Assembly: GCF_000730285.1 (NCBI RefSeq)
Contig: NZ_CP007174.1
Location: forward strand, 2,356,001 to 2,420,000
Source: Candidatus Nitrososphaera evergladensis SR1
Lineage (GTDB): Archaea; Thermoproteota; Nitrososphaeria; Nitrososphaerales; Nitrososphaeraceae
Direction of reading: 5' to 3'
DNA length: 64,000 bases
Part shown: piece after piece, positions 4,838-61,322 of the stretch
How positions within the stretch are numbered: the first letter of the stretch is position 1
Layout of the letters: every line of letters begins with the position of its first letter
The notes under the pieces: model-generated
Told to the model about the DNA's origin: nothing
Seen by the model: the letters and a program-made list of their open reading frames with translations, nothing else
The model's database searches: none
Program-made: the position numbers and the translations under genes

Positions 4838-4940
4838 GGCAATTGTAATAAGTGCCGGACCATATTTGACTCTTGCTTACTTTATGGTACAAACCCCGAA
4901 CAATCATCAAAGATTATAAGCACTGCTGGATAATTTTTCT

Positions 4941-32571: not shown

Positions 32572-33525
32572 TTACGCTTTTCTGATGCCGCTAAACGGCG
32601 CATGAAGGATGGTCTTTCTTGCCGCCCTTACGACTTCAAACACCGCGTTGCGCAGCAGGCTTGCCGTGTCTCCAAGCATCCTGACTATAACCCCCGAGTT
32701 GTTCGGGAGGATGCTTGCGCCAAAGTAGAGGTCCTTTGAATAGCCGGCCAGGCCCGAGTTTATCTTGTCATGCAGTTCAGCAACATATTTCGAGGGCGCA
32801 AGCACGTACGTGCTTCCCACGGTATCATAGTTATCCAGCACTCCAAAAGCCTTCATGCTCCGCTTTTTTGGCTCCATGATGGCAACGTCTACAAACCTCA
32901 TGTCGCCGTCCTGGTTTGTGGCCTGGGTCTTCATGTAGCAGATGTCGTAGGCAAACGACTCGCCCCTTGCAACCCTGCCGGGCGTCATTATCTCCGAGTA
33001 CAGCATTGTAGCGCTGTCGTGGACGCGCAGGTTGGCAACCTGGTAGAAACGCGAATCAACATACGGTATTATCTGGTCTGGAATGTACTCAAAATAGCAC
33101 CCTTCCCCAACGTCGACGTTCACTATCTGCGTTGCAAAGTTCTTTTCCATCCTGTAGATCCGCGTGGCTCCCTGCGTGGTAATGTGCGCAAGTGCGTTGT
33201 TGCGAAGCGTGATGTCCATTCTGTACCTGTCGCCCTGCAGGATGCCGCCAGACGGCGATATGATGTAAAGGTACGCCATTGACGGCAGCGCCTCTTCGAG
33301 GTACAGGGCGCGCCCCGTGTAGAGCGGAACCCGGGAGTACTGCTCTTTCACGGAGGTCTTGCCGTTATGCTCGTCCTTTTCCAGCCTCAAGATCAGGCCG
33401 CCGAGCTTGCCGGGGTTTCCCACGCCAAGCTGGTCCAGCTTTGATCCGTACGCCTGCACTTCAGGCGGTATCGCGTCTGGGATATAGTACGCCAGATCGT
33501 TGACGGTAGTTTTTGCCATCATCAA
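32572..33525 (-). CDS. ureD: Urease accessory protein UreD (UreH)
   Basis: This 317-residue protein carries the UreD pattern: ISPSGGILQGDRYRMDITL (about 87-105), ITTQGATRIYRM (about 114-125), YIPDQIIPYVDSRF and SEIMTPGRVARGESFAYD. UreD docks on apo-urease and, with UreF and UreG, delivers nickel. Its ATG overlaps the ureG stop (TGATG). It is the last gene of urease locus 1 and the only ureD in the window, so it must serve both ureases. Confidence 0.93.
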   Translation of the reverse strand: MMMAKTTVNDLAYYIPDAIPPEVQAYGSKLDQLGVGNPGKLGGLILRLEKDEHNGKTSVKEQYSRVPLYTGRALYLEEALPSMAYLYIISPSGGILQGDRYRMDITLRNNALAHITTQGATRIYRMEKNFATQIVNVDVGEGCYFEYIPDQIIPYVDSRFYQVANLRVHDSATMLYSEIMTPGRVARGESFAYDICYMKTQATNQDGDMRFVDVAIMEPKKRSMKAFGVLDNYDTVGSTYVLAPSKYVAELHDKINSGLAGYSKDLYFGASILPNNSGVIVRMLGDTASLLRNAVFEVVRAARKTILHAPFSGIRKA

Positions 33526-34190
33526 ACAGCTGCAGCCTTTGGTGGTGATTCAAACAGGACGTCTCTTATGATGTGATCTGCAACCTGCTGGACGCCCTGG
33601 CCGGACTTGCAGTTGACAAACACGTACGGCTTGCCGCCCCGGATTGCCTTTGCATCGCCTTCCATCACGGCAAGGTCGGCGCCAACGTAGGGAGCAAGGT
33701 CTATCTTGTTTATGACCAAGAGGTCGCAGGTCTCTATCCCAAGCCCCCTCTTTCTCGGATACTTGTCGCCTCCGGACACGTCTATTATATAGATGAAATA
33801 GTCTGCAAGTGCAGGGCTGAAGGTAGTGGTGATGTTGTCTCCGCCGCTTTCAATCAGTATGAGGTCAAGGTAGCCGTGCTTGGACTCCATTTCCTCCACG
33901 ACCGAAATGTTCATCGACGGGTCTTCCCTGACTGCAGTGTGCGGGCATCCGCCCGTTGCCAGCCCTATAACCAGCTCTTCAGGCATCAGGTGCTGCCGGG
34001 TGGCAAGGTTCTTTCGCATCCTGTCTGCGTCTTCACGTGAAATCACGTCGTTTGAAATGATGCCAGCCTTGTACCCCTTTGACGCTAAAATCGGCACCAC
34101 CATCTCTATCAGCATGGTTTTTCCAGATCCGACCGGGCCTCCGATCCCCACCCGCGGAATCCTTTTTGCTGTTGCGGTATTGCTGCTCAT
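33522..34190 (-). CDS. ureG: Urease accessory GTPase UreG
   Basis: This 222-residue GTPase carries Ni to the urease maturation complex. The P-loop is GIGGPVGSGKTMLIE (about 17-31), the metal-binding CPH is in GGCPHTAVREDPSMN (about 79-93), switch residues are in LILIESGGDNITTTFSP, and the base-recognition motif is VINKIDLAPYVGAD. All residues expected for Ni and GTP binding are present. Overlap with ureD and close spacing to ureF show one operon. Confidence 0.96.
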   Translation of the reverse strand: MSSNTATAKRIPRVGIGGPVGSGKTMLIEMVVPILASKGYKAGIISNDVISREDADRMRKNLATRQHLMPEELVIGLATGGCPHTAVREDPSMNISVVEEMESKHGYLDLILIESGGDNITTTFSPALADYFIYIIDVSGGDKYPRKRGLGIETCDLLVINKIDLAPYVGADLAVMEGDAKAIRGGKPYVFVNCKSGQGVQQVADHIIRDVLFESPPKAAAV

Positions 34191-34232
34191 ATGTTTATTC
34201 TATCACTCACTAGCAATTTTAGTGCTCCCGGA

Positions 34233-34934
34233 TCAAGTAATAAACATTTTAGAGGCCATCTTTTCGTGCGACATCTGCACAATGTCGATCTGCGGGGCAA
34301 ACTGCCACATTCCCTCGACTGGCCTGCCTATGTTTTCGTTTACGGTCCTGACTATCACGGGCTTGAGCTCGTCGATAATCTTTTGGCCTTCGAAATGCTG
34401 GAACATGCCAAGCCGAAGAGCCGCTCCCACCATGCCTACTGAAAACGAGTACAGCATGGCAAGCCCTGCCTTCCTCTTTGGGATGGACAGCGCGTTGCAC
34501 GCAACAGCCAGCGCGACAGGGTACGGGCCAAAAGCATGGCCGCTCTTTATCGCCGCGGCGTATTCGTTGAGCACCGTGTTTTCAGTCACGAAAAAGTTTG
34601 TGCACCGAAGCATCTGGGTCCCGGACCTTGCCGAGGCGTTTCTTATCTCCTGGACCAGCTTCATCGAATGCAGGATCTTGTCGACCCGGATGACATTTTG
34701 GACGTCTGACTTAGACGCATATTCGTAGGCGTTGCCAAGCGCCGCGCAGTCTGCCGGGCCCATCTGGTGCTCTATGAATATTTTGACGAGAGCAAAAAGT
34801 TCTGACACTTTGAGTTTCTTGCCGCTGTAAAAGAGCGCTTCAAGCCCGTTTGAGGTCGTGTACATTCCAGTTGGAAAGAACGAGTCGGCAAGCTGCATCA
34901 TGCTCAGGTCCGCAATGTCACTGCTAGTGCTCAT
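34233..34934 (-). CDS. ureF: Urease accessory protein UreF
   Basis: This 233-residue helical protein has the typical start LMQLADSFFPTGMYTTSNGLE-like segment (here MMQLADSFFPTG, about 12-23) and AGVGLGLAP-type helices represented by GHAFGPYPVALAVA. UreF controls UreG GTP hydrolysis and bridges UreD. The ATG at 34934 is favoured because it overlaps the end of ureE by 11 bases; an in-frame ATG at 34961 would lengthen the overlap. Confidence 0.92.
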   Translation of the reverse strand: MSTSSDIADLSMMQLADSFFPTGMYTTSNGLEALFYSGKKLKVSELFALVKIFIEHQMGPADCAALGNAYEYASKSDVQNVIRVDKILHSMKLVQEIRNASARSGTQMLRCTNFFVTENTVLNEYAAAIKSGHAFGPYPVALAVACNALSIPKRKAGLAMLYSFSVGMVGAALRLGMFQHFEGQKIIDELKPVIVRTVNENIGRPVEGMWQFAPQIDIVQMSHEKMASKMFIT

Positions 34935-35448
34935 GTACGTCCATTCCCTCCTCTGGCTCAAACACCATCTTGGCGCTCTTTATTTCCAGGTGCTCGTTCA
35001 TGTGCCCGAAAAGCTTGCGGAACATGTCAAGCTCGCTGTCGGTCTGTATGGGAAAGTAGATCTTGTTGTCCTCAAGCTTGATCGGCCTGTGCAGGTTTCC
35101 GATGGTGTGGCCTATCCTCACGGGCACCTCTATCAGGTCGTCTTTGTGCAGGGTATTTTCCTTGACTTGCACCACTGCAACATTTTCCGGCTCTAGCTCG
35201 ACTACCACCATCATCTTCTTGTCGTCTGTCAAGAGTACCACGTCGCCGTGCCGAAGCCTGCTCCCTGGCGGCAGGGTGATTGCGATGTCCGTGCCCTTGT
35301 CAGAAGTTTTGCGCATCCTTACCCTCTGGGACTCTAGGCGGCTTATCCGTACTGTCTCGCCGGGGATCTGGCGGTATTTTTCCTTCAGCGAATTGTCACG
35401 GTAAATGTTGCCAAGAATGGAAGTTGCAGTAATCATCGCTGTCGTCAT
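34924..35448 (-). CDS. ureE: Urease accessory metallochaperone UreE
   Basis: This 174-residue protein has an N-terminal domain with RISRLESQRVRMRKTSDKGTDIAI and LRHGDVV, then a ferredoxin-like domain with GHTIGNLHRPIKLEDNKIYFP, where the conserved His of the GN.H motif binds Ni. The tail VHEH has two His but lacks the long His-run of bacterial UreE. It gives nickel to UreG. Confidence 0.93.
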   Translation of the reverse strand: MTTAMITATSILGNIYRDNSLKEKYRQIPGETVRISRLESQRVRMRKTSDKGTDIAITLPPGSRLRHGDVVLLTDDKKMMVVVELEPENVAVVQVKENTLHKDDLIEVPVRIGHTIGNLHRPIKLEDNKIYFPIQTDSELDMFRKLFGHMNEHLEIKSAKMVFEPEEGMDVHEH

Positions 35449-35867: not shown

Positions 35868-37442
35868 TCACCTTTTTGTTTCTGTCATTGCCTGCGGGCT
35901 CAGGTCTTCTGCTGCAAGGTTCCTGTCTATGCGCAGGACCGACTTGGCTATCTCGCCGGCGGCCTTTAGCGCCATCGTCTTGACCATGAGCGGGTCTACG
36001 ACCCCGATCTTCCACATGTCCACCGGCTCTCCGGAATTGATGTCGATTCCATAACCGGGCGGAGATGTCTTGGCAGTCATGACCCTTTCAAGGCCGTTAA
36101 AACCCGCGTTGGTAAGTATCTGCCGCATTATGCTTTCAAGCGCGGAGGCCACCACTTCAAGGCCCACCTGCTCAAGCCCCTTGAGCCTTGCGTTTTTTAC
36201 CTTGTCCATTATGTGTAGTTCTGCGGCGCCTCCTCCTGGCACTATGCCCGTGTTAAGGGCTGCTTCGGCTGCGTTTACGCCGTCAATTGCCGCCCGCCAC
36301 CTCTCAAGCGACGTTTCCTTGGTCGTCCCAGAGACAACCATCGTCACCATGTTCTTGCCGGCGCCGCCCTCGATGTATATTATGCTGTTGTCCTCGTCTT
36401 CGTATACCCGCTCGGCCCTGCCCAGGATGTCCTGCCTTTTCAGGTCGTCAGCCACCCTCACGGGCTTGGCGCCGGTGTATCTTGTCAGGTGATCAATTTC
36501 TTCCACAGAGACCCTTGCGGCAAAGACGCCTTTTGCCACGAGCAGGTCCTCGACAGCCTGGTCCACCTCCGGCGACGCGATCAGGACTGCGTTGGTGCCG
36601 GTCTTGAGCATTGCGTCGACCATTTCCCGGGACTTGGCCATCCTGTCGTTTTCCATTAGCAGGATCTCCTGATAGTTCTTGTTCTCCTTTATCCACGATT
36701 CCTTGACGGGCTTTAGGTCCATCTTTGTGATCAGTATCCTTGCGCCCCTTACTTCCTGCGGGATCTCAGGGTCAAGCCTCTTTCGCTCAAGCACTATGCC
36801 ATTGACCACCTGGTCTTCCATGCTGGTCTTGCGAAGCACCATTATAGCCTTGCCAAAGTCGTACTCGCCGTTGTACTTGGCGTTCTCGCCTACTGTACGG
36901 AGGGCGGTGATGACCATCTTGGCAAGCCGGGCGCCGTCCAGTTTTGAAGAGAGCGACGTCGTGACGACGTGCTCCAGTTCCAGGTCGTTGATGGTTATTG
37001 CCTTGGCGTCTTCCTCAAGGAGATGGCAGGCGTGCCTGACGCCGCTTTCAATGCCCTCCACCACCTTGGTCGGGTGGACTCCAAGTTCCTTTATCAGCCT
37101 CTTGCCTTCCTTTATCATCTCTGCAGACATTACCACTGCCGTGGTCGTCCCGTCCCCGACCAGCTGCTCCTGCCTCTCTGCTATCTCTACTATCATCCTT
37201 GCAACAGGGTGGATGGCCTTGAGCGACAGCAAAATTGTGACGCCGTCGTTTGAGACGTGCCTGTTCATCGCCTGGTCTATAAGCAGTTTGTCCAGGCCCT
37301 TTGGGCCCAGGGTAGTCCTCACGCAGTCGGCCACTGCCATGACCGCGCTTGAATTTGACTCCAGAGCGTTGTACTCTACGTGCTCTGCTATTGGACGCCA
37401 GACTCCATAATTAGGTGCAGACATATTGGCTGCCGTTTGCAT
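35868..37442 (-). CDS. Group II chaperonin (thermosome) subunit within the urease operon
   Basis: Read from the ATG at 37442 (TATA-like atacctttat just upstream) this is a 524-residue thermosome subunit; ATGs at 37424 or further upstream are alternatives. ATP-site motifs are TLGPKGLDKLL, NDGVTILL and VGDGTTTAVV, with VPGGGAAELH near the C-terminus. The end is EDLSPQAMTETKR, without the usual GGM repeats. It lies between ureC and the accessory genes. It is divergent from the second thermosome in this window (55456-57165). A dedicated role in folding urease is an inference from position. Confidence 0.9.
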   Translation of the reverse strand: MQTAANMSAPNYGVWRPIAEHVEYNALESNSSAVMAVADCVRTTLGPKGLDKLLIDQAMNRHVSNDGVTILLSLKAIHPVARMIVEIAERQEQLVGDGTTTAVVMSAEMIKEGKRLIKELGVHPTKVVEGIESGVRHACHLLEEDAKAITINDLELEHVVTTSLSSKLDGARLAKMVITALRTVGENAKYNGEYDFGKAIMVLRKTSMEDQVVNGIVLERKRLDPEIPQEVRGARILITKMDLKPVKESWIKENKNYQEILLMENDRMAKSREMVDAMLKTGTNAVLIASPEVDQAVEDLLVAKGVFAARVSVEEIDHLTRYTGAKPVRVADDLKRQDILGRAERVYEDEDNSIIYIEGGAGKNMVTMVVSGTTKETSLERWRAAIDGVNAAEAALNTGIVPGGGAAELHIMDKVKNARLKGLEQVGLEVVASALESIMRQILTNAGFNGLERVMTAKTSPPGYGIDINSGEPVDMWKIGVVDPLMVKTMALKAAGEIAKSVLRIDRNLAAEDLSPQAMTETKR

Positions 37443-37580
37443 TTCGGTCGAGATAAAGGTATATTGCGTTTGTATGCAAAAATTGAGCATTTCGACCAAA
37501 GGATTGAAAAGAAATAGAGAGAGAGAAAGGCAGAGTAGGGGCTGTTATGCCCACCACGCTACTAATTTTCTTTCCTTCTC

Positions 37581-39308
37581 TTAAGCCATAAAGTACCTCT
37601 GCGCCAGCGACAGCTCGTCGGCAGGTCCCACCGTTGCGATCTTGCCGTCCAGCTTGACCTCGTACGTCTCCGGGTCTATGGTTATCTTGGGCGTCTCGTC
37701 GTTCCACATCATGTTCTTCTTGCTGATGTTCCTGCAGTTCTTGACCGGCAGGCATACCTTTTCCAGGCCCAGCTTTTGCGGTACGCCCAGCTCCATTGCC
37801 CTCTTTGACGTAAAGGTGTAGCTCGTCTTGTGGACTGCCTTGCCAAAGGCGCCAAACATCGGCCGGTAGTACACAGGCTCGGGGGTCGGAAGCGACGCAT
37901 TGGGATCGCCCATTATCGACCATGCGATAAAGCCGCCTTTCAGGACCATCTTGGGCTTGGCAGGGAAGAATGCCATTGGATACATCACAATGTCCGCGTA
38001 CTTGCCCACTTCAAGCGATCCAAGGTAGTCAGAGACTCCGTGCGTTATGGCCGGGTTTATGGTGGTCTTGGCGATGTACCTCTTTGCCCTAAAGTTGTCG
38101 TTGTCGCCGGTCTCCTGCGGTAGTCTTCCTTTCATCTTTTTCATCTTGTCTGCAGTCTGCCACGCGCGGATGACGACCTCCCCTATCCTCCCCATCGCCT
38201 GGCTGTCTGACGAATACATGGAAAGCACGCCTTCATCGTGCAGGACGTCTTCTGCGGCGATGGTTTCTGCCCTGATCCTAGAGTCGGCAAACGCGACGTC
38301 TTCGGCGACTGCAGGGTTCAGGTGGTGACAGAACATCAGCATGTCCAGGTGCTCGTCCACGGTGTTCTTGGTGTACGGCCTTGTGGGGTTTGTCGACGAC
38401 GGCAGCGCAAACATTTCTCCGGCTATTTTCATGATGTCCGGCGCATGGCCTCCGCCGGCTCCCTCCGTGTGGTACGTGTGGACCACCCTGCCGTCAATGG
38501 CGTTGATGGTGTCTTCGACGTACGCGCACTCGTTTATAGAGTCGGTGTGGATTGCCACCTGCGTGTCGGTAAGGTCTGCCGCCCTGAGCGAGGCATCCAG
38601 AACTGCCGCAGTGGTGCCCCAGTCCTCGTGATCCTTTAGGCCGCAGGCGCCTGCATCGATCTGCTCAAGCTGGGTCGCAAGCGTCGGGTGCGAATCGTTT
38701 CCCTTGCCCAGAAAGCCCCAGTTCATAGGGGTGTCCTCGACTGCCTCCATCATCCTGCTTATGTTGTACACGCCGGGCGTGCACGTTGTCGCGTTTGTGC
38801 CGTCTGCCGGGCCCGTGCCTCCGCCTATCATGTTGCAGATGCCGCCGCTTATGCCGTCTATGTACTGCTGTGGCGAGATCATGTGTATGTGCGTGTCAAA
38901 GTGGCCGGCTGTGCATATTGTGTGCTCGCCTGCGGTGGCTTCCGTGCAGGCTGACACCACCATGTTCGGGTTTACCCCGTCCATCGTGAGCGGGTTGCCG
39001 GCTTTTCCAACGCCGGCTATCTTGCCGTCTTTGATGCCGATGTCGGCCTTTACTATTCCAAGCACTGGATCTAAAATGACTGCGTTTGTTATGACAAAGT
39101 CCAGGGCGCCATTCTTATTTGTAACGCCGGACGTCTGGGCAAGGCCGTCTCTAAGGGTCTTGCCTCCGCCAAAGACACACTCGTCTCCAGGCGTTATCAG
39201 GTCTTTTTCTATCTGTATCACAAGATCCGTGTCTCCGATCCTCACCTTGTCGCCGGTGGTCGGTCCGAACAGGTCGGTGTATTGTTTGCGGGTTAGTTTC
39301 AGGACCAT
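37581..39308 (-). CDS. ureC: Urease subunit alpha, locus 1
   Basis: This 575-residue catalytic subunit hydrolyses urea to ammonia and carbamate. All nickel ligands are visible: His140 and His142 (DTHIHM), carbamylated Lys225 ([11 protein letters not shown]), His254 (VAIHTD), His280 ([11 protein letters not shown]) and Asp368 (SSDSQAMGR), plus the mobile-flap His of FCHHLNP. The N-terminus [16 protein letters not shown] is normal. Upstream ureB ends 20 bases away. It is full-length and should be active once nickel is loaded by UreDEFG. Confidence 0.97.
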
Positions 39309-49158: not shown

Positions 49159-50682
49159 TTACCTCCCCACGGGCTCCATGTAGCCCTTCAGGTCCTCGCC
49201 CTTGACGACGTCTTCTTCTGGCGGGACGTATTCGATGACGCCGTGCCTCTGCGCGCCGGGGTACCTTTTCTGCGTGGCAAGCGCGACTATGACAAACGCC
49301 GCAAACGATATTGGCGGAGGTATCATCGTGTCCAGGCCTGCAAGGTCTGGAGGCATGGTCAAGAACAGCAAGAGCCGGATGGAAGAGCCCACGATGAGCG
49401 ACGTGATCGCGGCAGGCATGTTGGCCTTTTTCCAGAACAGCCCAAGCGTGAGCGGGGCCCACGCTCCGGCAAACACAATGTCAAACGCAAGCACTAGATA
49501 GATTCCCGGCTGCGGGAGCAGGTATCCAAGGATAAACGCCGCAACCATCATCGGAATGGTAAAGAGGCGCGTTGTCATGAGCAGTTTCTTGTCCTCCATG
49601 CCGGGGCGCTTGAGCATCCTGCGCAGGATGTCGCGCTGGATGATGTTTCTTGACATGACTGACGATATGGCAAGGAGCCCGCCGTTGGCTGTCGACATTG
49701 ACGCGCCAAGCACGCCCATCATGAGCGCGGCCCCTATTGGAAACGGCATGTGGTTTATCGCAAGCTCCGGGTACGCGGTGAACGGGTCTGCGATGTTTGG
49801 AAGGACAAAGAGCGCGATTATGCCCATCATGCTGGTCGGTATGACAGTAAACAGGGTGAGGCCGGCGCCCATGAACGCCCCGCGCTGCGCAGTCCTGCCA
49901 TCCCTTGCCGCAAAGACGCGCTCCATAAAGTCAAGCGCCACAATGTCGCCAAGGCCAAGCGCCATTATGCTTGCCCAGTTGACGTACGCGCCGTTTGCTG
50001 GGTCGACAAGCCCTGACAAGTCAAGGTATGCAGGCGGCGCGTTGCCAAGGATGGTCCCAAAGTCGACGCCGTAAAAGCCGCCCGCAAAAAACAGGAACGC
50101 AGCCCAGAACGCCCCTATTGCAAGATATATCTGGAAAATGTCAGTATAGGCAGACGAAAAGAGGCCGCCTGCGTACGTGTATACTAGGACTATCAGCGCG
50201 GCGATTAGCATCCCCCAGAAAAGGTCGATCCCAAAGACAGATTGCAGGATAAAACCACTCGCCGCAAAGTTGCCGGCGACAAGCACGATGAAACTTATCA
50301 TCATGAGCACGCCGGAGATGCCCTCGGCGCCGTTGCCAAAGCGCCGGTAGTAAAAGTCAGGCAGCGTCAAGAGAGCCATCTTGTTCAGCCTCTTGCCGTA
50401 AACAGTCCCCGTAAGTATGAGGCATACGCCAAGGCCAATCGGGATCGCCGCGCCGGCCCAGAACCCAAACTGGTATACCAAGGACACGTTGCCAAGCGAC
50501 GAGTTGCCGTCAATCGACTGGGCGGCAAGCATCGTCCCCACGAAAAACAGTGGGAGACTTTTTCCGGCGACCATGTACCTCTTGCTGCTTTTCTTTACAA
50601 GCCTCGATGTCAGCGTGCCGACGACAAGCGACAGCACAAGAAATGCCGCAATAGCTATTCCAAACCCATCCAGCCCAGCCAT
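49159..50682 (-). CDS. Sodium:solute symporter (SSS family)
   Basis: This 507-residue protein has about 13 helices of the SSS fold. Landmarks are KRYMVAGKSLPLFFVGTMLAAQSIDGNSSLG, the helix VLVYTYAGGLFSSAYTDIFQ and MMGVLGASMSTANGGLLAISS. It lacks the USP fusion of the DUR3-like gene at 42336. The solute is unknown; location near a ureohydrolase and ureases suggests a nitrogenous compound. An AT-rich promoter (tatatatttagtaaata on the plus strand) lies directly upstream. Confidence 0.85.
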   Translation of the reverse strand: MAGLDGFGIAIAAFLVLSLVVGTLTSRLVKKSSKRYMVAGKSLPLFFVGTMLAAQSIDGNSSLGNVSLVYQFGFWAGAAIPIGLGVCLILTGTVYGKRLNKMALLTLPDFYYRRFGNGAEGISGVLMMISFIVLVAGNFAASGFILQSVFGIDLFWGMLIAALIVLVYTYAGGLFSSAYTDIFQIYLAIGAFWAAFLFFAGGFYGVDFGTILGNAPPAYLDLSGLVDPANGAYVNWASIMALGLGDIVALDFMERVFAARDGRTAQRGAFMGAGLTLFTVIPTSMMGIIALFVLPNIADPFTAYPELAINHMPFPIGAALMMGVLGASMSTANGGLLAISSVMSRNIIQRDILRRMLKRPGMEDKKLLMTTRLFTIPMMVAAFILGYLLPQPGIYLVLAFDIVFAGAWAPLTLGLFWKKANMPAAITSLIVGSSIRLLLFLTMPPDLAGLDTMIPPPISFAAFVIVALATQKRYPGAQRHGVIEYVPPEEDVVKGEDLKGYMEPVGR

Positions 50683-52077: not shown

Positions 52078-53226
52078 ATGGGAATGGAATTCTACGGTGA
52101 TTCGTACAAGGGAAATGACGAGCCGATTTTTGTAGGCATACCAACCTTCCTGAAGCTGCCCTGGCTCAAGAGCAAGGCAGAGCTGGAAAAAGTCAGGCCG
52201 GACGTGGCCATCATAGGAGAGCCGTTTGACTTTGGCACCACCATCCGCCCGGGGGCGAGGTACGGCCCAAGGGCAATCCGCGCGGCCTCGACCGTCCCGT
52301 CCCCGCCGTACGAGCACTTTAACATAGAGACAGGCGTCGACCCGTTTGGCGTGTTCAGGTCTGTAGACTATGGCGACGTCAACATATCGCCCGGTGACGT
52401 GGTAGAGTCGCACAGGCGCATGACGGAGAAGGTCAAGGAAGTGCTTGACATCGACGGCATCCCGGTGATGCTTGGCGGAGATCATTCAATTACGTTTGCC
52501 AACGTGCGCGCCTTTGCAAAAAAGTACAAGAACATCGGCATGATCCACATCGACACCCACGCAGACTGCGCGCCGCAAGGGTTGACGGGCTTCAAGTACG
52601 ACCACGGCGCCCACATCCGCAGGATAATGGAGCTTGGGTGCCTAAAGGGCAAAAACTACACGCTCATCGGCCCGAGGGGTTACTGGCCCGGGCCGGACCT
52701 GTACAAGTGGATGGCCGACCAGGACTTTCAGTGGTTCACGATGCTTGACGTGGAGGAGCTGGGAATAGACAAGATAGCAAAAGAGGCGGCAGACAGGGCA
52801 AACGACAACGTCGACGCAGTCTATATCAGCTGGGACATTGACACGTTTGACCCCGCGTACGCGCCGGGAACAGGCGAGCCGGAGCCAAACGGCCTGACGT
52901 CAAGGGAGGGAATGCGCCTCATGCGCCTGCTTTCGACGTCGTTTGATCCGGACAGGTTTGCGTTTGACCTGGTCGAAGTCGCGCCCAACTATGACGTAAG
53001 CGACGGCAGCTCGTACAACGGAGGCATCACGTCTGGCCTTGCCAACAGGCTCATAGTTGAACTGCTTGCAGGATTGTCGCTGACAAAGAAGGGCAAGACC
53101 GAGGGGAGCCCGGTGAGGCCCAAGTTCTACCGCGGCAAGGGCCACACGTACGACTTTGGCAACGGCCCAAAGGCCAAGGTGCCAAAGAGGCCGCCCTTGG
53201 CCTACGGCCCAAAGATAAAGAGGTAG
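52078..53226 (+). CDS. Arginase/agmatinase-family ureohydrolase
   Basis: This 382-residue enzyme has all metal-binding motifs of the family: GGDHS (about residue 138), HIDTHAD (about 159-165) and SWDIDTFDPAYAPGTGEPEP (about 249-268). It is longer than most agmatinases, having an N-terminal extension (PTFLKLPWLKSKAEL) and a basic Pro-rich tail. Products would be urea and an amine or ammonia. Candidates for the substrate are agmatine, another guanidino acid, or guanidine itself; nickel-dependent guanidine hydrolases belong to this family, and the nickel genes nearby make that option worth testing. It is followed after three bases by a urease-gamma-like gene. Confidence 0.9.
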   Translation: MGMEFYGDSYKGNDEPIFVGIPTFLKLPWLKSKAELEKVRPDVAIIGEPFDFGTTIRPGARYGPRAIRAASTVPSPPYEHFNIETGVDPFGVFRSVDYGDVNISPGDVVESHRRMTEKVKEVLDIDGIPVMLGGDHSITFANVRAFAKKYKNIGMIHIDTHADCAPQGLTGFKYDHGAHIRRIMELGCLKGKNYTLIGPRGYWPGPDLYKWMADQDFQWFTMLDVEELGIDKIAKEAADRANDNVDAVYISWDIDTFDPAYAPGTGEPEPNGLTSREGMRLMRLLSTSFDPDRFAFDLVEVAPNYDVSDGSSYNGGITSGLANRLIVELLAGLSLTKKGKTEGSPVRPKFYRGKGHTYDFGNGPKAKVPKRPPLAYGPKIKR

Positions 53227-53229
53227 CAG

Positions 53230-53628
53230 ATGATCTACATCAAGGCGGTTGCAAAGGGCGAGCCCGACGCGGCTCCCCTTGCCAAGTTTTTTCAATACAT
53301 TGATTCGACTGACGAACTTATCCTGAAGCATTCCATAGAGATGGTAAAGGACAAGATGGACAGGAACTTGAAGCTGAACGTGAACGAGGCGTTTTTGCTG
53401 TACGCGTATTTCGTGGCAACACAGGTGCGCGCCAAGAAAAAGGCGGCCGAGATCGAAAAAGACGCCAATTCGCTCCTTTCCTCGGACCAAGTCATGATAG
53501 GCGTCCCGGAGACTTTACGGACTATTACGTTTGACGCCATAGTCGACGGGAAAAGGGAGTGGATAACTTTGCAAGAGCCCATGTCCGTTTCAAGCTACGT
53601 AATGGCCAACAATTCAAGCGGTAGCTAG
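53230..53628 (+). CDS. Divergent urease gamma (UreA)-like protein coupled to the ureohydrolase
   Basis: This 132-residue protein aligns without gaps to UreA of this window: after the shared LKLN it keeps the same spacing for 68 residues, including GVPE at the same place and TLQEP where UreA has TVHNP. About a quarter of positions are identical to the locus 2 UreA. It has an extra N-terminus of about 30 residues (IYIKAVAKGEPDAAPLAK) and a short tail. It lies three bases after the ureohydrolase, so the two are co-translated. A role as partner or scaffold for the ureohydrolase, or as a modified urease subunit, is inferred. Confidence 0.72.
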   Translation: MIYIKAVAKGEPDAAPLAKFFQYIDSTDELILKHSIEMVKDKMDRNLKLNVNEAFLLYAYFVATQVRAKKKAAEIEKDANSLLSSDQVMIGVPETLRTITFDAIVDGKREWITLQEPMSVSSYVMANNSSGS

Positions 53629-53714: not shown

Positions 53715-54569
53715 TCAGTTGTGCGAGTGGTGCGGGTCGGTCGTCTTGTCTTCTTTTTGCATGATCAAGTCCGCGCGGCCTGCCTTTCTTCGGGCGGCAA
53801 ACGAATAGCCAAACGAGCCGGCTATTATCACGCCTGCCAGCACGGGCCCGGCCAGCTCCGGGATTATCTCTGCGCCGGTGAGGTTCTCGTACGTTGCCAA
53901 TGCGGCAACAGCCATCGCGGCCCCACTCAGGGCGTAGGACATGTACCTGAACCCCTTTGTGTCAAATATACGCGACAGCGCCGAGCGCAGCAGTATGCTG
54001 TCAAGCGTATCCAAGGGGATCATGCCAAGCGCAAAGAACCCTGCAAGGGTCAGGGCCACCTGTACGCCAAGCGTCGCAGACGCCACTGCCGACAGCGTGA
54101 TTGCCGAAATCTGCGTTGCAGTGTCAAAGCCAAGGCCGAATACCATTCCCGTGACAAGCGACGACACGAACGGGTTGTACGAGCCGGTCCTTGCCAGCAC
54201 CTTGCTTGCAAGGATCGCAGAGCCGGTCTTGCCCCATTTTTTCATGGCATAGATGTTTATAGCTCCTATGGTCCCAAGAGCCGCTGCTCCGATGATCCCT
54301 CCCCAGAAAGCCAGCACGTCGGCGCCGGCGATGCCGCCTATGACGAATATGATAAACACCATCTCGGCCAGCACGGATATCATGTGGCCTACGCTAAAGC
54401 CGGCCCCCACCCACCTTGACTTGCGCGATGCGTTGTGAAGCCTTACCATGTTGTCAATAGCGGTAATGTGATCCGCGTCAAGCGCATGGCGCAGGCCGAG
54501 CAACACCATGGTAGGGATAGAGACTGCGACGAACGTTGCAATGTCGCCTTCTACCAATTGCGGCAACAT
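53715..54569 (-). CDS. NiCoT-family nickel/cobalt transporter
   Basis: This 284-residue membrane protein has the signature LGLRHALDADHITAIDN in helix 2 (about 24-40), then GFSVGHMISVL and FGLGFDTATQI. These residues bind Ni or Co in NiCoT permeases. The C-terminus ends HHSHN. The ATG at 54569 lies 14 bases from a strong NikR-type operator. With NikR upstream and ureases on both sides, nickel is the likely ion. Confidence 0.93.
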   Translation of the reverse strand: MLPQLVEGDIATFVAVSIPTMVLLGLRHALDADHITAIDNMVRLHNASRKSRWVGAGFSVGHMISVLAEMVFIIFVIGGIAGADVLAFWGGIIGAAALGTIGAINIYAMKKWGKTGSAILASKVLARTGSYNPFVSSLVTGMVFGLGFDTATQISAITLSAVASATLGVQVALTLAGFFALGMIPLDTLDSILLRSALSRIFDTKGFRYMSYALSGAAMAVAALATYENLTGAEIIPELAGPVLAGVIIAGSFGYSFAARRKAGRADLIMQKEDKTTDPHHSHN

Positions 54570-54754: not shown

Positions 54755-55201
54755 TCAGACGACTGAAACAAAATGCACTTTCAGGCTTTTTATCCCGCGG
54801 CTTTCCGACAGCTTTTTGGCAAGCTCCTTTATCCGCCTTATTTCGCCCCTCACCATCACAGTCTCTAGGCAGTTGTCGTGGTCAAGGTGCAGATGCGTCG
54901 AGGCGCTGATGATGTCGCTGTAATGGTGCTGTACGTGCGTGGACTCGGAATCGTGGTTGTACGCGTGGTTGTCGTACAGCATCATTATTGCGCCTGCGCC
55001 GTTTCGGCTGTCCTCGCCCTTGTCCCAGTCATACTGGGCTATGAACGAGTGCAGGGCGGCCTGTATGGCCTTGGACCTGTCTGAAAACCCGGCCTTCTTC
55101 ATCGACCTGTCAAATTCGGACAGCAGGTCCGGCGAAAGGGACATGCTTATGCGGTCGACGGGCTCTTTTTTCCGGTGGCTGTGCGAATGGCGCTTTGGCA
55201 A
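54755..55201 (-). CDS. nikR: Nickel-responsive regulator NikR
   Basis: This 148-residue protein has an N-terminal ribbon-helix-helix (DRISMSLSPDLLSEFDRSMKKAGFSDRSKAI) and a C-terminal ACT-like domain. The four Ni ligands of NikR are kept with the right spacing: His92 (HHYSD), His103 and His105 (STHLHLDH) and Cys111 (DNCLE). The N-terminus has extra His (HSHSH). It represses nickel uptake when nickel is sufficient; the clear target here is the NiCoT gene just downstream. Confidence 0.93.
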   Translation of the reverse strand: MPKRHSHSHRKKEPVDRISMSLSPDLLSEFDRSMKKAGFSDRSKAIQAALHSFIAQYDWDKGEDSRNGAGAIMMLYDNHAYNHDSESTHVQHHYSDIISASTHLHLDHDNCLETVMVRGEIRRIKELAKKLSESRGIKSLKVHFVSVV

Positions 55202-55249: not shown

Positions 55250-55279
55250 AGTAATACTTTTTATCTAAAATTTATTACT
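55250..55279. promoter_or_regulatory. NikR half-sites upstream of nikR
   Basis: AGTAATA (55250-55256) and TATTACT (55273-55279) match the arms of the operator at the nickel transporter, but in reversed order, separated by 16 bases. They lie about 50-80 bases upstream of nikR and could allow weak autoregulation. Confidence 0.35.
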
Positions 55280-55302: not shown

Positions 55303-55462
55303 ATGGCGCCCAAGCCGGTTATCGTCAAGCTTGCAAAGAAAAGAGGTAGCAGGGACGGGCGCATACAGCGATGAAAAATACGTCTTTATCAAGATGCCGG
55401 GCAGCATCGATTCTGCAAGGAAGGTTCCAAAAGAAGCTAGAAAAAATAACGTGTCTCAATAG
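55303..55462 (+). pseudogene. Short frame, possibly a frameshifted small gene
   Basis: From the ATG at 55303 (MAPKPVIVKLAKKRG) the frame stops after 23 codons. A +1 shift continues as AYSDEKYVFIKMPGSIDSARK to a TAG at 55460-55462, and this second frame could also begin at TTG 55331. A TATA-like aaatttatt (55267-55275) fits the ATG. Either a sequencing error or a real frameshift could explain it. The product is unknown, and the end overlaps the thermosome. Confidence 0.35.
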
Positions 55463-57165
55463 TAGTGGTGCATCGGGCGCTGCTGCCTGCCCAGCTTGTC
55501 AAAGTGGTCGTGTGCCTGCTTGCCTCCGCGGTGCGAGTGGGTTGTGCCGTCAGAGTGGGTGTGGGTATAGTAGGCAGGCTTGGCCATCACCACGTCATCA
55601 ACGCGCAAGAGCAAGTCGGCAACCTCAGCCGCCGTATTCATTACCTGCTCCTTGACTGCAAGCGGTTCTATGACGCCAAGCGCAAGCATGTCGTCCTGCA
55701 CCCTGCGTGAGAAAGCGTTTACGCCGCACCAGCCTTTTCCGTCCTTGGCGCCGGCAGCGCGCAGCTGAGCCTGTGCGTCAATGACGTCCATGCCGGCGTT
55801 TGCAGCAATTGTCAGCGGGATCTCTTCGAGCGCGTCTGCAAATTTCAGGATTGCAAGCTGCTCCCTGCCCTCCACAGTCCTGGCGCTTTCCCTCACCGCC
55901 CTTGCGGCAAGGGCCTCTGCAGCGCCCCCGCCTGCAACCACTAGGGGACTTGCGACAAAGTCGCGCAAGACGTTTAGCGCGTCAAGGATGGAGCGGTGGA
56001 ACTCGTCAAGCACCTTGGCAGAGCCGGCGCGCAAAAGTATCGTGACAGAGCGGGGGTTTCTGCACTCCTCCACAAAGACCATCCTGTCATCTCCTACAAA
56101 CCTTTCACAGACCCTGCCTGCAAAGCCAAGGTCCGACTGCGAAATGCTGTCAAGGTCCCTCGTTATTTTTGCGCCCGTGGCTTTTTCCAGCCACCACAGG
56201 TCGTTTTCTTTTACCCTGCGTACAGACATGATGCCGGCGTGCGCAAGCATGGTCTGCGCAAGGGTGTTGATGCCCCCGCGCGATATCACTACGTTTGCGC
56301 CCGAATCGATTACGGCTTGCACCTTCTTTCGCAGCTCAAACGCCTGCTCGTCAAGGTATGCCCTGATCTGCGCTGGAATTGTGATCCCTATTTCCGCGTC
56401 GGTGCGCGTGTTCTTTTTGTCAAGGTCGTAATCGATAAGGAGGACTTTGGCGTTTTCAACGGACTTGGGCATGGCCGAGCTGTCGACCGTCTTGTCGATG
56501 ACGACGCCGGCGACAAGCTGCGTGTCTTGTACGCTGCCGGGCTTTTGCTCCACCTTGACGTCGTCGATTTCCACCTTGGCGGATGCAGGGTTGCAAACTG
56601 CCATTATTGCGTCAACCACAAGTTTTGCGATTCGCTCCTTTTCCATGCAGGACGATATAGCCTTTGATTCCATGCACGTCATGGCAAGGCGCTCCATCGT
56701 CTTTCTGTCAGAATTTGTGTACTTTACCGCGTTTGACAAAAGGGCATTCGTCGCAGTGGCAAGGGCCCGGCGGTAGCCGTCAGAAATAGTCGACGGAAGG
56801 ACGCCAAGCTCTAGCAGCTCCTCGGCATTTGCCACAAGAGCGCCTGCAAGGACGACCACCGAAGTCGTTCCGTCGCCCACCGCATTGTCAACCGCGTTTG
56901 AAGCCTCGATGAGCACCTTTGCGGCAGGATGCTCGACATCGATCTTGCGCAAAAGTGTCGCCCCGTCTTTTGTCAGCGTCACCTCGCCCATGATGTCAAC
57001 AAATACCTTGTCCATGCCACAAGGTCCAAGCAGCCCCTTGACCATCTCCGAGATGAGCCTAGCGGCAAGCATGTTGTACCTGCGCGCTTCGCCTCCGCTT
57101 GTCCTTTTTACCCCTTCTCCAAACAGCCGCTGTTGCTGCTGGTTTTTTGTCTGCGCGGCCATCAT
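55456..57165 (-). CDS. Group II chaperonin (thermosome) with histidine-rich tail
   Basis: This 569-residue chaperonin has LLGPCGMDKVFVD, TKDGATLLRK and VGDGTTSVVVLAGAL in the ATP site and VVAGGGAAEALAARA. The last 36 residues contain eight His (THTHSDGTTHSHRGG, AHDH, MHHYY), replacing the GGM tails of ordinary thermosomes. A His-rich tail inside the folding chamber could bind Ni. The gene is divergent from ureABC locus 2 and next to nikR, so a nickel-linked folding role is plausible but not proven. It is a different branch from the urease-operon thermosome at 35868. Confidence 0.9.
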   Translation of the reverse strand: MMAAQTKNQQQQRLFGEGVKRTSGGEARRYNMLAARLISEMVKGLLGPCGMDKVFVDIMGEVTLTKDGATLLRKIDVEHPAAKVLIEASNAVDNAVGDGTTSVVVLAGALVANAEELLELGVLPSTISDGYRRALATATNALLSNAVKYTNSDRKTMERLAMTCMESKAISSCMEKERIAKLVVDAIMAVCNPASAKVEIDDVKVEQKPGSVQDTQLVAGVVIDKTVDSSAMPKSVENAKVLLIDYDLDKKNTRTDAEIGITIPAQIRAYLDEQAFELRKKVQAVIDSGANVVISRGGINTLAQTMLAHAGIMSVRRVKENDLWWLEKATGAKITRDLDSISQSDLGFAGRVCERFVGDDRMVFVEECRNPRSVTILLRAGSAKVLDEFHRSILDALNVLRDFVASPLVVAGGGAAEALAARAVRESARTVEGREQLAILKFADALEEIPLTIAANAGMDVIDAQAQLRAAGAKDGKGWCGVNAFSRRVQDDMLALGVIEPLAVKEQVMNTAAEVADLLLRVDDVVMAKPAYYTHTHSDGTTHSHRGGKQAHDHFDKLGRQQRPMHHYY

Positions 57166-57386: not shown

Positions 57387-57689
57387 ATGATGTTTGCTCC
57401 ACGAGAGATAGACAAGCTGTACATTTTCATGGCGGCAGAGGTGGCGCGAAAAAGGCGTGCAAGGGGACTAAAGCTGAACTACCCGGAGACAGTGGCGCTC
57501 ATTTCCGACCACATTGTAGAAGGGGCGCGCGACGGCAGGTCGGTGCCAGAGCTGATGAGATCGGGCAGGCAGGTGCTTTCAAGGCAGGATGTGCTCCCCG
57601 GCGTTCCAGAGCTTGTCAAGCAGGTGCAGGTGGAGGCGACGTTTGACGACGGCACGAAACTAGTGACCGTGCACAACCCCATAGTGTGA
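57387..57689 (+). CDS. ureA: Urease subunit gamma, locus 2
   Basis: This 100-residue UreA has [38 protein letters not shown] and [21 protein letters not shown] (in parts). The start at 57387, or the ATG at 57390, lies about 27-30 bases after a TATA box, so the message is leaderless. Its stop overlaps the GTG start of ureB (GTGA). Confidence 0.95.
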
Positions 57690-58069
57690 GTGATCTCTTT
57701 CTGATGCCGGGAGAATATTTCATCATTTCAGACAAGCTGGTGATGGCAAACCCCGGCAGGAGAACAACCAGGGTCAGCGTGAGCAACACAGGCAGCAGGC
57801 CGGTGCAGGTTGGCTCGCACACGCACTTTTTCGAGGTAAACAAGGCGCTCTCGTTCCCGCGGGAAAAGGCGTACGGGTTTCACCTGAACATCCCGGCAGG
57901 GACGTCGCTGCGCTTTGAGCCCGGCGATACGCGAGAAGTCGAGCTTGTAGAGTACGGGGGCAGGAAAATAGTGCATGGCTTTTCCGGCCTTGTTAACGGC
58001 AAACTGTCGGCGGCAAAAAAGAAAGAGGCATTGGCAAAAGCAAGGGCAAGGGGGTTTGCGGGCGCCTGA
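57686..58069 (+). CDS. ureB: Urease subunit beta, locus 2
   Basis: This 127-residue protein begins at GTG 57686, overlapping the ureA stop. The core is [45 protein letters not shown] and [13 protein letters not shown]. It lacks the Lys-rich N-terminal extension of the locus 1 copy. Its TGA (58067-58069) overlaps the presumed CTG start of ureC. Confidence 0.95.
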
Positions 58070-59778
58070 CGCTTGAAATCCCGCGCAGGCAGTACGTCGA
58101 CCTGTACGGTCCTACCAAAGGCGACAAGGTGAGGCTTGCGGACACTGACCTGATAATAGAGGTTGAAAGGGACCTGCTTTTTCCCGGCGACGAGCTGATG
58201 TTTGGCGGCGGAAAAAGCGTCCGCGACGGGGCTGGCCAGGCAAGCGGGATAACAAGCAGGCAGGCGCTCGACCTTGTCATAACAAACGCGATAGTGATGG
58301 ACCCGGTGCTTGGAATCGTAAAGGCAGACATCGGGATAAAGAACGGCAAGATAGCTGGAATTGGCAAGGCTGGCAACCCGGACGTCATGGACAACGTCGA
58401 CATGATAGTTTCCTCGGCTACTGAAGTAATCGCCGGCGAGCATACGATATGCACGCCCGGCACGATTGACACGCACATTCACTTTATCTCACCCCAGCAG
58501 GCAACAGAGGCAATATGCGCCGGCACGACTACGATGATAGGCGGAGGCACGGGCCCCGCAGACGGCACAAACGCGACAACGTGCACGCCGGGGCCATGGA
58601 ATATCCACAGGATGCTTGAAGCACTCGACGAGCTCCCGCTGAACTTTGGGCTCCTTGGCAAGGGAAACGACTCGCGCGAGCCGGCGCTCATCGAGCAGAT
58701 AGCGGCTGGCGCCTGCGGGCTGAAACTTCACGAAGATTGGGGCTCTACGCCGGCAGCAATTGACGCCGCGCTCCAAGTCGCAGACAGGACAGACACGCAG
58801 GTGGCAATCCACACCGACACGCTCAACGAGTGCGGCTTTGTGGACGACACGATTGAAGCAATAGCTGGGCGCACCATCCACACGTACCACACGGAGGGAG
58901 CCGGCGGAGGCCATGCGCCGGACATTTTAAAAATTGCCGGCGAGAACAACATACTGCCGTCGTCGACAAACCCGACAAGGCCATTTACCGCAAACACGCT
59001 TGAAGAGCACCTTGACATGATGATGGTGTGCCACCACCTGAACCCCTCGATACCAGAGGATGTTGCGTTTGCTGAATCCCGAATACGCGCCGAGACCATA
59101 GCGGCAGAAGATGTCCTGCACGACATTGGCGCGCTTTCCATGTATTCGTCAGACAGCCAGGCGATGGGCAGGGTGGGAGAGGTCACGTCAAGGGCGTGGC
59201 AGACTGCAGACAAGATGAAAAAGATGGCCGGCAGGCTGAAAGGCGAAAAGGGAAACAACGACAACCTGCGCGCAAAGAGATACCTGGCAAAGCTCACGAT
59301 AAACCCGGCGATAGCCCACGGCATCTCTTCCTACGTCGGCTCGCTTGAAAATGGCAAGATAGCAGACATTGTCATCTGGACGCCGCAGTTCTTTGGGGTA
59401 AAGCCAAAGATGGTGGTAAAGGGAGGGTTTATCGCGTATTCGCTCATGGGCGACCCAAGCGCGTCGATACCGACTCCAGAGCCTGTCTATTACAGGCCGA
59501 TGTTTGGGTCGATGGGCGCGGCAAAATATTCCACGTCGTTTACGTTCACGTCAAAGCTGGCAATCAGAAACGGCGTCCGCAAAAAACTTGGACTGAAGAA
59601 AAAGCTGTTGCCCGTGAAAAACTGCCGCAAAATCGGCAAGCGCGACATGCTGTACAACGACCTTGCGCCAAAGATAGACGTCGACCCAGAGACGTACGAG
59701 GTAAGGGTGGACGGCAAGGTGGCGGCAAGCGAGCCGGCAAAGAGCCTTTCAATGTCAAGACTCTACAACCTCTTTTAG
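58066..59778 (+). CDS. ureC: Urease subunit alpha, locus 2, probable CTG start
   Basis: Read from CTG at 58066 this is a 570-residue catalytic subunit. Nickel-site motifs are all present: [22 protein letters not shown] (Lys), [24 protein letters not shown] and SSDSQAMGR. No ATG, GTG or TTG lies between an in-frame stop at 57994 and the GTG at 58129, which would remove 21 conserved residues ([13 protein letters not shown]). The CTG aligns exactly with Met1 of the locus 1 UreC and overlaps the ureB stop as CTGA. No accessory ure genes follow, so UreDEFG of locus 1 must serve it. Confidence 0.93.
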
Positions 59779-59832: not shown

Positions 59833-60087
59833 ATGACTCCTGTAAGGAATCAAAAAGACGTCGAAAAAGCAGCAAGCCGCGCCATCGAGGCCCTCTACGG
59901 GCCAGAGGTCAAGGACCTGAAGATAAGGGTGCTATTGCCGTTCCCAAACGAGCATAAACAGGAGGGCTGGGACGCAAATGTTACTTTCCTGCTGAAGGGG
60001 ATGCAGTACACGGTCGACCTCCTGATAAACCAGGACGATGGCCAGATAACAAACGCAAGGCTCATCGACACGATGATGCCCATCTAA
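59833..60087 (+). CDS. Small hypothetical protein
   Basis: This 84-residue protein starts with ATG about 20 bases after a clear TATA box (gaatatttatatac, 59793-59806). It has a helix (VEKAASRAIEALYGPEVKDL), then strands (KIRVLLPF, ANVTFLLKGMQYTVDLLINQDDG). It is soluble. No family is recognised. The strong leaderless promoter makes it a real gene. Confidence 0.72.
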   Translation: MTPVRNQKDVEKAASRAIEALYGPEVKDLKIRVLLPFPNEHKQEGWDANVTFLLKGMQYTVDLLINQDDGQITNARLIDTMMPI

Positions 60088-60119: not shown

Positions 60120-61322
60120 CTAGGATCGGTTTGCCTCTACGCCGATGTTAAACGTGCCAAGGTAGCCCGGCCCATTGTCTTTTGTAAGGTTGAGCATCAG
60201 GTGGGAGCCCGTGTTGCTTTGCAGCATGCCGTCAGTTGACGGTCCGGTGTAGATAAAGTCCTGATTGTTTTTGAGGGGGCGGGGACCGTGGTCGCTGTAC
60301 GGGGCCTGCGCTTCTATCTTGTCTGAAACAGAGTCGTCAAGGTAAAACTGCGACGTCCACTCGAACGTCTTTGCAGAACCCTCAAAGGTGCGGACCTTGA
60401 CGTGGATGTGCAGAGCCCTGCCCTCGTACCAGCCGGGGTAGACGGTGGTGAACCGGACCGTGCCGTTACCGTCAGTCAGCTGGTATCCCCGGAGGAACTT
60501 TTTCCCTTCAGTGCCAATGCTTGCAATGTCAGAGTAAAGCCCTTGGGAGTTTGTCTGCCAAATGTCTACCTGCGCGTTGCGGAGAGGGATGCAGGAGCCA
60601 TTGTCAACGTCATAGACATTAAGCAAAAGTCGCAGCGGGACGCCGTCTTGGACCGAGCCGTCGGACGGGTCCGGCCGGATGTCAGAGCGTTCCAGCTTTT
60701 CATCGACAAAGTACGGGCCTTCTATCTGCTGCGGCGTGTCTTCGACTTCAATCAGCGACGGAGTCAGGGTGCATTTTTGTACAGCAGCGACAGGTTGGGA
60801 GGCGCTGCCGGGCTGACTTGTCGGCCCCATTGGGCGACCCATCGACATTGGTACAAACGATCCTGCCAGTATTATTGCCGCAACGACCCCGACAAGAGCC
60901 AAGAGCTGATTGTTGTTTTTCTTCTCTGCAGGCGCAGCCCTGTAGTCAACGACCTGTTTGCGGATTTCATAAACCAGAATTGCAGCCAAGAGCCCGACAA
61001 AGGCCGCCTGAGAGACTTCGATGGCTATGGCTATCGGGTTGACGGGGCCTCCTCTTCCTGTAATCGGGTTGCCCGGCATCCTGGTTATGGCCCATAACGC
61101 AATAAGCACCAGCGTCCCTGCAATGCCTGTGTAATACCACGGCCTGCCCCACCTTCTCACCACAGGTATTATCCAGAACACCTGCGCGATTCCCCCTACG
61201 ACGAACAGGATGCCGCCTGCAGCGTTGAACTCCAGGCTGCCAGGACCAAGGGTAAGGTGCAACACGCCAGCTATGGCGGTGGCAGCGGCTGCCACATAGT
61301 ACAACGCGCTAGAGTAGGCCAT
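60120..61322 (-). CDS. Membrane-anchored intradiol ring-cleavage dioxygenase-like protein
   Basis: This 400-residue protein has four to five N-terminal membrane helices (residues about 5-165) and an extracellular C-terminal domain (about 195-400) of the intradiol dioxygenase type. EGPYFVDEKLERSDIR starts the domain, and the Fe(III) ligands appear as Tyr in NSQGLYSD, Tyr in VYPGWYEGR and the two His of ALHIHVKV. The usual enzymes open catechol rings in the cytosol. A membrane-attached, outward-facing form in an ammonia oxidiser has no obvious substrate. Confidence 0.85.
   Translation of the reverse strand: MAYSSALYYVAAAATAIAGVLHLTLGPGSLEFNAAGGILFVVGGIAQVFWIIPVVRRWGRPWYYTGIAGTLVLIALWAITRMPGNPITGRGGPVNPIAIAIEVSQAAFVGLLAAILVYEIRKQVVDYRAAPAEKKNNNQLLALVGVVAAIILAGSFVPMSMGRPMGPTSQPGSASQPVAAVQKCTLTPSLIEVEDTPQQIEGPYFVDEKLERSDIRPDPSDGSVQDGVPLRLLLNVYDVDNGSCIPLRNAQVDIWQTNSQGLYSDIASIGTEGKKFLRGYQLTDGNGTVRFTTVYPGWYEGRALHIHVKVRTFEGSAKTFEWTSQFYLDDSVSDKIEAQAPYSDHGPRPLKNNQDFIYTGPSTDGMLQSNTGSHLMLNLTKDNGPGYLGTFNIGVEANRS

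Follow-up and report, generated by a model that had tools for sequence, protein, structure and literature searches.

Why should an archaeal chaperonin encoded among nickel and urease genes end in a histidine-rich tail, and which enzyme, if any, would such a tail serve? The question arises in a stretch of 64,000 nucleotides of the Candidatus Nitrososphaera evergladensis SR1 chromosome (NZ_CP007174.1, positions 2,356,001 to 2,420,000), which we call the window and number from its first letter. Two features define the problem.

55456..57165, minus strand: His-tailed group II chaperonin, 569 aa, ATG start (PF00118, 503.7 bits)
55459..55575, minus strand: His-rich C-terminal tail of this chaperonin, residues 531-569, with 8 His (alignment of 48 orthologues; predicted disordered)

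The protein is a group II chaperonin: it exceeds the cut-off of the Cpn60_TCP1 profile, its best match is an archaeal thermosome, and both the GDGT nucleotide motif and the catalytic Asp are found in it. It scores 576.5 bits with the NCBIfam model thermosome_alpha, over the cut-off of 450, and 571.1 with TIGR02339 (thermosome_arch), below that model's cut-off of 671.1. It is about 41-45% identical to the best solved archaeal structures, and its AlphaFold model (mean pLDDT 79) has the group II fold, the top Foldseek matches being Mm-cpn, KS-1 and others of this group. Nearly all of residues 525-568 lie at pLDDT below 50 in this model, and the C-terminal tail is predicted to be disordered or flexible. 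The tails of group II chaperonins point into the folding cavity. The genome, a single contig of 2,954,373 bases, has seven PF00118 genes, and the six other proteins lack a His tail (0, 0, 0, 1, 1 and 0 His in their last 50 residues). The initial annotation described the His tail as a replacement of the GGM repeat, and this is accurate relative to the three paralogues that have GGM tails; the description does not hold for the remaining three, whose tails are short and have no GGM. Among the chaperonins of ammonia-oxidising archaea, the window protein is a dedicated group II paralogue.

Its sequence ends in ...MAKPAYYTHTHSDGTTHSHRGGKQAHDHFDKLGRQQRPMHHYY. As the initial annotation had counted, there are eight His in the final 36 residues; the whole protein has 11, and none of 20,000 shuffles of the protein matched this concentration. 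We gathered orthologues from 70 genomes of the family and 400 of the class, which gave 48 full-length proteins, 33 from the window's family and 15, listed by hand, from a second family in its order, probably the Nitrosopumilaceae. Six tail His (H535, H537, H543, H545, H552 and H566) are invariant in the 48 orthologues and two more nearly so (H554 in 47, H567 in 46), counts to be read knowing that the 33 proteins of the first family were selected by length (>500 aa) and by a C-terminal pattern that itself requires His at the fourth-last position and His or Gln at the third-last. Five members of that family (L061, L064, L074, L075 and L076) were excluded because they are cut by a contig end or split by a frameshift, and two of these, L074 and L076, show the tail; so does the orthologue of G191, which is not one of the 48 proteins. 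The spacing of the His is fixed (H-x-H...H-x-H...H-D-H), four other residues (G540, G559, Q562 and R563) are kept in 48/48, and the final two are almost always Tyr. Across orthologues all six Arg codons occur at R563, and both His codons at H566, so selection acts on the protein sequence and not on the DNA. The His tail is a conserved trait of the family, far beyond chance, and in having it where the usual tail would be the protein has the form of a putative His-tailed metal-binding chaperonin.

A scan of an 84,980-species collection with a tail motif, which favours the window's type of tail, returned 39 confirmed loci. They were all titled Thaumarchaeota or members of that group (e.g. Nitrososphaera, Nitrosocosmicus, Nitrosotalea), one under the title 'Nitrososphaeraceae bacterium', and none of the 39 is bacterial by lineage. 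In some orthologues the apical domain has a second, longer His-rich insert close to residue 340 of the window protein, with 14-16 His in 40 residues; its carriers, 6 of the 48 (L065, L066, L067, L069, L072 and L078), all belong to the window's genus.

The ATPase is under weaker constraint than the tail in these 48 orthologues, and it is the tail that selection preserves. In an ungapped alignment position 395 corresponds to Mm-cpn residue 386, the one altered in the solved structures whose entry titles read 'D386A', and it is occupied by Asp in each of the genome's six other chaperonins. Among the orthologues it is Asp in 27, Asn in 14 and Ser in 7, that is, the catalytic Asp is lost in 21. Asp67 (Mm-cpn 60) is kept in 32 and lost in 16; both Asp are kept in 23 and both are lost in 12, and GDGT is present in 48/48. 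An ATP-driven folding cycle cannot therefore be general in the family, unless the subunits that miss the catalytic Asp join hetero-oligomers. In many species the His-tailed subunit would then either need canonical partners or have given up ATP-driven cycling.

Loss of Asp395 and Asp67 beside a fixed tail is what one might expect if a degenerate chaperonin had become a scaffold for a metal store or a detoxification sink and played no part in folding. Sequestration of this kind has been proposed for HspA, the GroES of Helicobacter pylori, whose His-rich C-terminal domain B, with H-D-H...H motifs, is described as binding two Ni per monomer (PMC5116745), and the extra His-rich loops of six orthologues point in the same direction. 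We nevertheless consider a sink improbable: every orthologue keeps GDGT and 23 keep both Asp, the invariant G, Q and R and the C-terminal YY would not be needed for storage, and a sink is not expected to track one enzyme as closely as this chaperonin tracks AGM, a ureohydrolase encoded nearby. The relevant neighbours in the window are these.

49159..50682, minus strand: sodium:solute symporter, conserved in the cluster, a possible importer (PF00474, 104.3 bits)
52078..53226, plus strand: AGM, a ureohydrolase of the arginase/agmatinase superfamily (PF00491, 269.5 bits)
53230..53628, plus strand: urease-gamma-like protein directly 3' of AGM (PF00547, 48.2 bits)
53715..54569, minus strand: nickel permease of the NicO/NiCoT family (PF03824, 75.1 bits)
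54755..55201, minus strand: NikR nickel-responsive regulator (PF08753, 89.2 bits; NCBIfam, 125.6, cut-off 111)
57387..57689, plus strand: ureA of urease locus 2 (PF00547, 153.3 bits)
57686..58069, plus strand: ureB of urease locus 2 (PF00699, 138.1 bits)
58129..59778, plus strand: ureC of urease locus 2 (PF00449, 138.1 bits, and PF01979, 273.3 bits)
59833..60087, plus strand: 84-aa protein conserved in the cluster (22 of the 29 first loci)
35868..37499, minus strand: second, tailless chaperonin within urease operon 1 (PF00118, 355 bits)
32572..35448, minus strand: accessory genes ureE, ureF, ureG and ureD of urease operon 1 (UreE_N, UreF, cobW/UreG and UreD Pfam matches over cut-off)

Open reading frames and Pfam matches confirm that the chaperonin adjoins nikR and is divergent from ureABC locus 2: NikR and then the NicO permease follow it on the same strand, and ureA-ureB-ureC run divergently on its other side. 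The tailless chaperonin of operon 1 sits between ureC (37581-39308) and ureE (34924-35448). Across the 29 first loci of the family, the constant neighbour of the chaperonin is AGM, not urease. AGM is present in 27, and the stretches of the remaining two stop at the chaperonin, at contig ends. The symporter recurs in 21 of the 29 and NikR in only 2; in G041 NikR lies a few genes off. The urease-gamma-like gene adjoins AGM in most loci, those of the second family included, and its product may be a subunit or a maturation factor of AGM. The second family repeats the gene set, and in about half of its 20 stretches the gene of a NicO-like permease comes behind those of AGM and the urease-gamma-like protein. 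Nine of the 14 aligned NicO-like permeases match PF03824, the others fail to reach 0.01, and the consensus of these permeases has a long His-rich loop. Such synteny taken alone could have another cause, a shared nitrogen-use island.

Urease is the other enzyme that such a neighbourhood brings to mind. The tail might hold nickel for urease maturation, with AGM merely a nitrogen-use neighbour, and the arrangement of many loci fits this possibility: in the window the chaperonin and ureABC diverge, in 15 of 39 named loci the chaperonin gene lies directly 3' of ureD on the ureD strand, in 8 of the 39 it is divergent from ureA, and nearly all genomes with the tail are urease genomes. Yet many loci have no urease gene adjoining the chaperonin, urease operon 1 already has a tailless chaperonin of its own, and 67 of the 139 urease genomes lack the tail, of which 61 also lack AGM. 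We therefore regard a role devoted to urease as possible but unlikely.

These last counts come from a profile of 400 genomes of the class, in which we found the tail in 82, AGM in 86 and the urease alpha domain (PF00449) in 139. Tail and AGM occur together in 77 genomes, the tail only in 5, AGM only in 9 and neither in 309 (phi 0.895), against 72, 10, 67 and 251, respectively, for tail and urease (phi 0.566). The 14 genomes in which tail and AGM disagree are mostly fragmented assemblies. Within the urease genomes, tail and AGM agree in 129 of 139, compared with a mean of 90.3 and a maximum of 107 in 10,000 within-genus shuffles of the tail, a control that corrects only in part for the fact that the 400 genomes are related and their counts are not independent events. 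Since 11 genera hold both states, tail and AGM have changed together repeatedly. It is AGM, not urease, that appears and disappears together with the tail, and AGM is by far its better predictor. The initial reading of the tail in terms of urease and nickel is supported in one part, a dedicated group II chaperonin with a conserved His tail among nickel and urease genes, and is not supported as stated in the other: urease is not the distinguishing partner, as shown by its many tailless genomes and by AGM's tracking of the tail, and NikR is a rare neighbour. The urease reading should be extended to AGM or shifted there. It would have been contradicted by a tail found equally in species lacking urease. 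We searched for the tail in genomes with and without urease, and this is not how it is distributed, as 72 of the 82 tail genomes have PF00449.

Among the ten tail genomes without PF00449, three have ureC fragments (G065, G067 and G224) and two have urease accessory genes beside the chaperonin (G001 and G027). A search for UreC in 13 genomes recovered fragments in the same three and none in the other ten, all of them fragmented assemblies. Five genomes of the genus g12, with no PF00449 match, gave the appearance of a tail in a genus without urease. We rejected it after a check for UreD and inspection of the contigs, which show ureC from residue 148 and ureE-F-G-D in G065, and ureF-G-D in G069; PF00449 missed the g12 ureC because this profile is confined to the N-terminal part of UreC, and the contig did not include that part. 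Likewise, apparent cases of AGM genomes without the chaperonin were rejected when the AGM contigs of eight genomes showed orthologues. In G030, G033 and G021, of the same family, the contig stops at AGM, and the tail was later found in G030. One genome does count against the pattern: in G106 (99% complete, in 210 contigs) AGM is present, a tail was not found, and the AGM lacks the His extension described below.

What kind of enzyme is AGM, a highly conserved ureohydrolase? The ligands of the dinuclear site, in the set given by PMC11399263, are H136, D159, H161, D163, D253 and D255, and all six are invariant in the 15 aligned AGMs, as befits a ureohydrolase with an intact metal site. By sequence, its closest solved relatives are a guanidinobutyrase (180 bits) and two entries named 'agmatinase 2' (about 164 bits), with guanidinopropionase also among the nearest. 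The 'agmatinase 2' entries are, according to PMC11410670, guanidinases of Synechocystis (7OI1/7ESR) and Nitrospira inopinata (9FEK). We rejected the identification of AGM as a guanidinase by the residue rule that the same source gives for the N. inopinata enzyme (Thr105, His222, Trp313; PMC11410670): the Thr and His are present (T55 and H176), and the Trp is replaced by Glu (E267) in 15/15. Absence of this Trp leaves the substrate, and by analogy the metal, less certain. The screens described in PMC11410670 and PMC12625717 report no guanidine-degradation genes in the ammonia-oxidising archaea that they covered.

Nickel-dependent ureohydrolases of bacteria are described as matured by HypA and HypB encoded alongside them, with a nickel transporter gene behind (PMC11399263). 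AGM loci do not have the form of such HypA/HypB-assisted operons, as HypA reaches the PF01155 cut-off in none of 17 AGM genomes; three of these show partial matches that fall short. The gene context suggests that AGM is a nickel enzyme. Most ureohydrolases use Mn, and AGM may for this reason be a Mn enzyme. The tail would in that case bind another metal (Mn, Co, Zn or Cu) for an AGM working with Mn or Co, leaving the nickel genes to urease only; the presence of guanidinobutyrase and guanidinopropionase, besides the nickel guanidinases, among its nearest solved relatives is compatible with this. A NicO-like permease adjoins AGM in many loci, and NikR and NicO adjoin the chaperonin in the window, which argues against another metal and makes it, in our judgement, quite improbable.

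An exception proved informative. G175, a 97% complete genome from another family of the order, has four chaperonins, all tailless, and in one stretch it encodes AGM, the urease-gamma-like protein, a NicO-like permease and a complete urease. Its AGM is extended at the C-terminus by a His-rich segment that the other 14 aligned AGMs lack; 12 His fall within its last 75 residues. The order on the one strand of this stretch (L131, 4649-12337) is His-extended AGM, urease-gamma-like gene, NicO-like permease, ureABC and ureEFGD, a compact form of the cluster with no His-tailed chaperonin. The simplest reading is that the system needs a His tail, which may be on the cage or on the enzyme. Support for a tail in cis is limited to this single genome; around it, one other genome of its family was searched, which has no AGM, so that no second cis-tailed AGM was found. 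G175 also bears on the idea that the tail serves for docking or gives structure to the ring, with His that are incidental to metals. The invariant non-His residues G559, Q562 and R563 and the C-terminal YY could be read this way, but neither the fixed spacing of the His, nor the His-rich loops of the permeases, nor a His-rich extension of AGM precisely where the chaperonins are tailless would be expected, and we find the idea hardly credible.

The explanation that we favour, and to which we give about an even chance, is that of a chaperonin holding metal, probably nickel, for AGM, with or without urease as a further beneficiary. It draws on the constraint of the tail, kept through synonymous codon change; on the co-occurrence with AGM together with their synteny; on a nickel context made of NikR, NicO, the NicO-like permeases and the loci adjacent to ureD; on G175, where the His-extended AGM goes with tailless chaperonins; on the second His-rich insert of the apical domain in 6 of 48 orthologues; and on the precedent of HypA/HypB and transporter, set beside 17/17 AGM genomes with no HypA over the cut-off. 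That the tail binds metal is suggested by the pattern of its His and by the gene context. The GGM-type tail would have been replaced by a conserved, probably metal-binding one, and the subunits of the ring would hold metal ions, most likely Ni2+ rather than Mn, Co, Zn or Cu, on flexible C-terminal tails within the cavity or at its floor. The metal would then be handed to a client enzyme folding or assembling in the cavity. The likeliest client would be the neighbouring AGM, a dinuclear metalloenzyme of the arginase superfamily expected to release urea, and urease, the consumer of that urea, might be a second or alternative client.

A bolder form of this proposal, which we offer tentatively, is that the cage might be a metal-insertion chamber, whose tails would load nickel into a new Ni-dependent archaeal ureohydrolase folding inside, replacing HypA/HypB, and that the His tail could change places, lying in trans on the cage or in cis on the enzyme. 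If true, the pair of AGM and chaperonin would open an unrecognised route from guanidino compounds to urea and ammonia in ammonia-oxidising archaea.

How does this chaperonin compare with known systems? With the group II chaperonins (PF00118; Mm-cpn, KS-1, Thermoplasma acidophilum) the window protein shares the whole fold, GDGT and the catalytic Asp, whereas its family differs by a His-rich instead of a GGM tail, by loss of the Asp in 21/48 and by a dedicated neighbourhood. HspA resembles it as a protein of a chaperonin system with 8 C-terminal His and an H-D-H...H motif, in an organism with nickel and urease (PMC5116745). HspA is, however, the lid-forming co-chaperonin of group I, is also Cys-rich and has an unrelated fold; the window protein is a Cpn60 with no GroES fold, and we do not claim that the tails are homologous. 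By analogy, it may work like HspA without being a member of its family. Closer in architecture are the mycobacterial GroEL1 and other His-tailed paralogues of group I, ring subunits in which the GGM tail is replaced by a His-rich one; the proposal for GroEL1 is that it assists the folding of metalloproteins or binds metal (PMC5904260). GroEL1 differs in belonging to group I. To our knowledge, GroEL1-type paralogues of group I have no link to ureohydrolase or urease clusters.

Among archaea, Abby et al. 2018 described a tailless Hsp60 homologue in the urease operon of Nitrososphaerales and Nitrosocaldus and mentioned, without showing it, an extra ureABC set in N. evergladensis and N. viennensis (PMC5797428). 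Their homologue is likewise an archaeal chaperonin encoded with urease genes, and in the window it is the gene at 35868-37499; unlike the chaperonin studied here, of which it is a separate paralogue, it lacks the His tail. The nickel ureohydrolases with HypA/HypB, namely GdmH and metformin hydrolase, provide the other parallel, as a ureohydrolase gene beside genes for a His-rich nickel chaperone and a transporter (PMC11399263). The AGM loci differ from them by the His-tailed chaperonin, the urease-gamma-like protein, the lack of a HypA over the cut-off and the lack of the guanidinase Trp.

Our literature search found no published description of a His-tailed group II chaperonin. The parts are known from group I, and the group II case is new as far as we found in print. 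If our reading is right, it offers a test case for the metallation of clients by a chaperonin cavity and explains how ureohydrolases mature without HypA in these archaea. It would also point to an uncharacterised ureohydrolase cluster of ammonia-oxidising archaea that the screens for guanidine use, as described, did not flag (PMC11410670, PMC12625717).

Some further observations concern the cluster itself. The conserved 84-aa protein has no Pfam or NCBIfam family and no Foldseek match in the PDB at E<=0.001; its model (pLDDT 92.5) has one helix and four strands and is cystatin-like. Between its gene and that of citrate synthase lies a 400-residue open reading frame (60120-61322), absent in the close relative L038. 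NikR has an additional N-terminal HSHSH stretch ahead of the homology to its family. An imperfect palindrome, AGTAATACTTTTTA/TAAAATTTATTACT, lies at 55250-55279, just upstream of nikR; it is a possible regulator site and a hint of nikR's own promoter. A search for palindromes between the chaperonin and ureA led nowhere. G066 has two copies of AGM on separate contigs (L057 and L081). Finally, adjacent pairs of deoxyhypusine synthase homologues (PF01916) occur near the AGM cluster in the second family (L122, at 3288-5403, L124, L125, L128 and L135), which might hint at a polyamine-like substrate.
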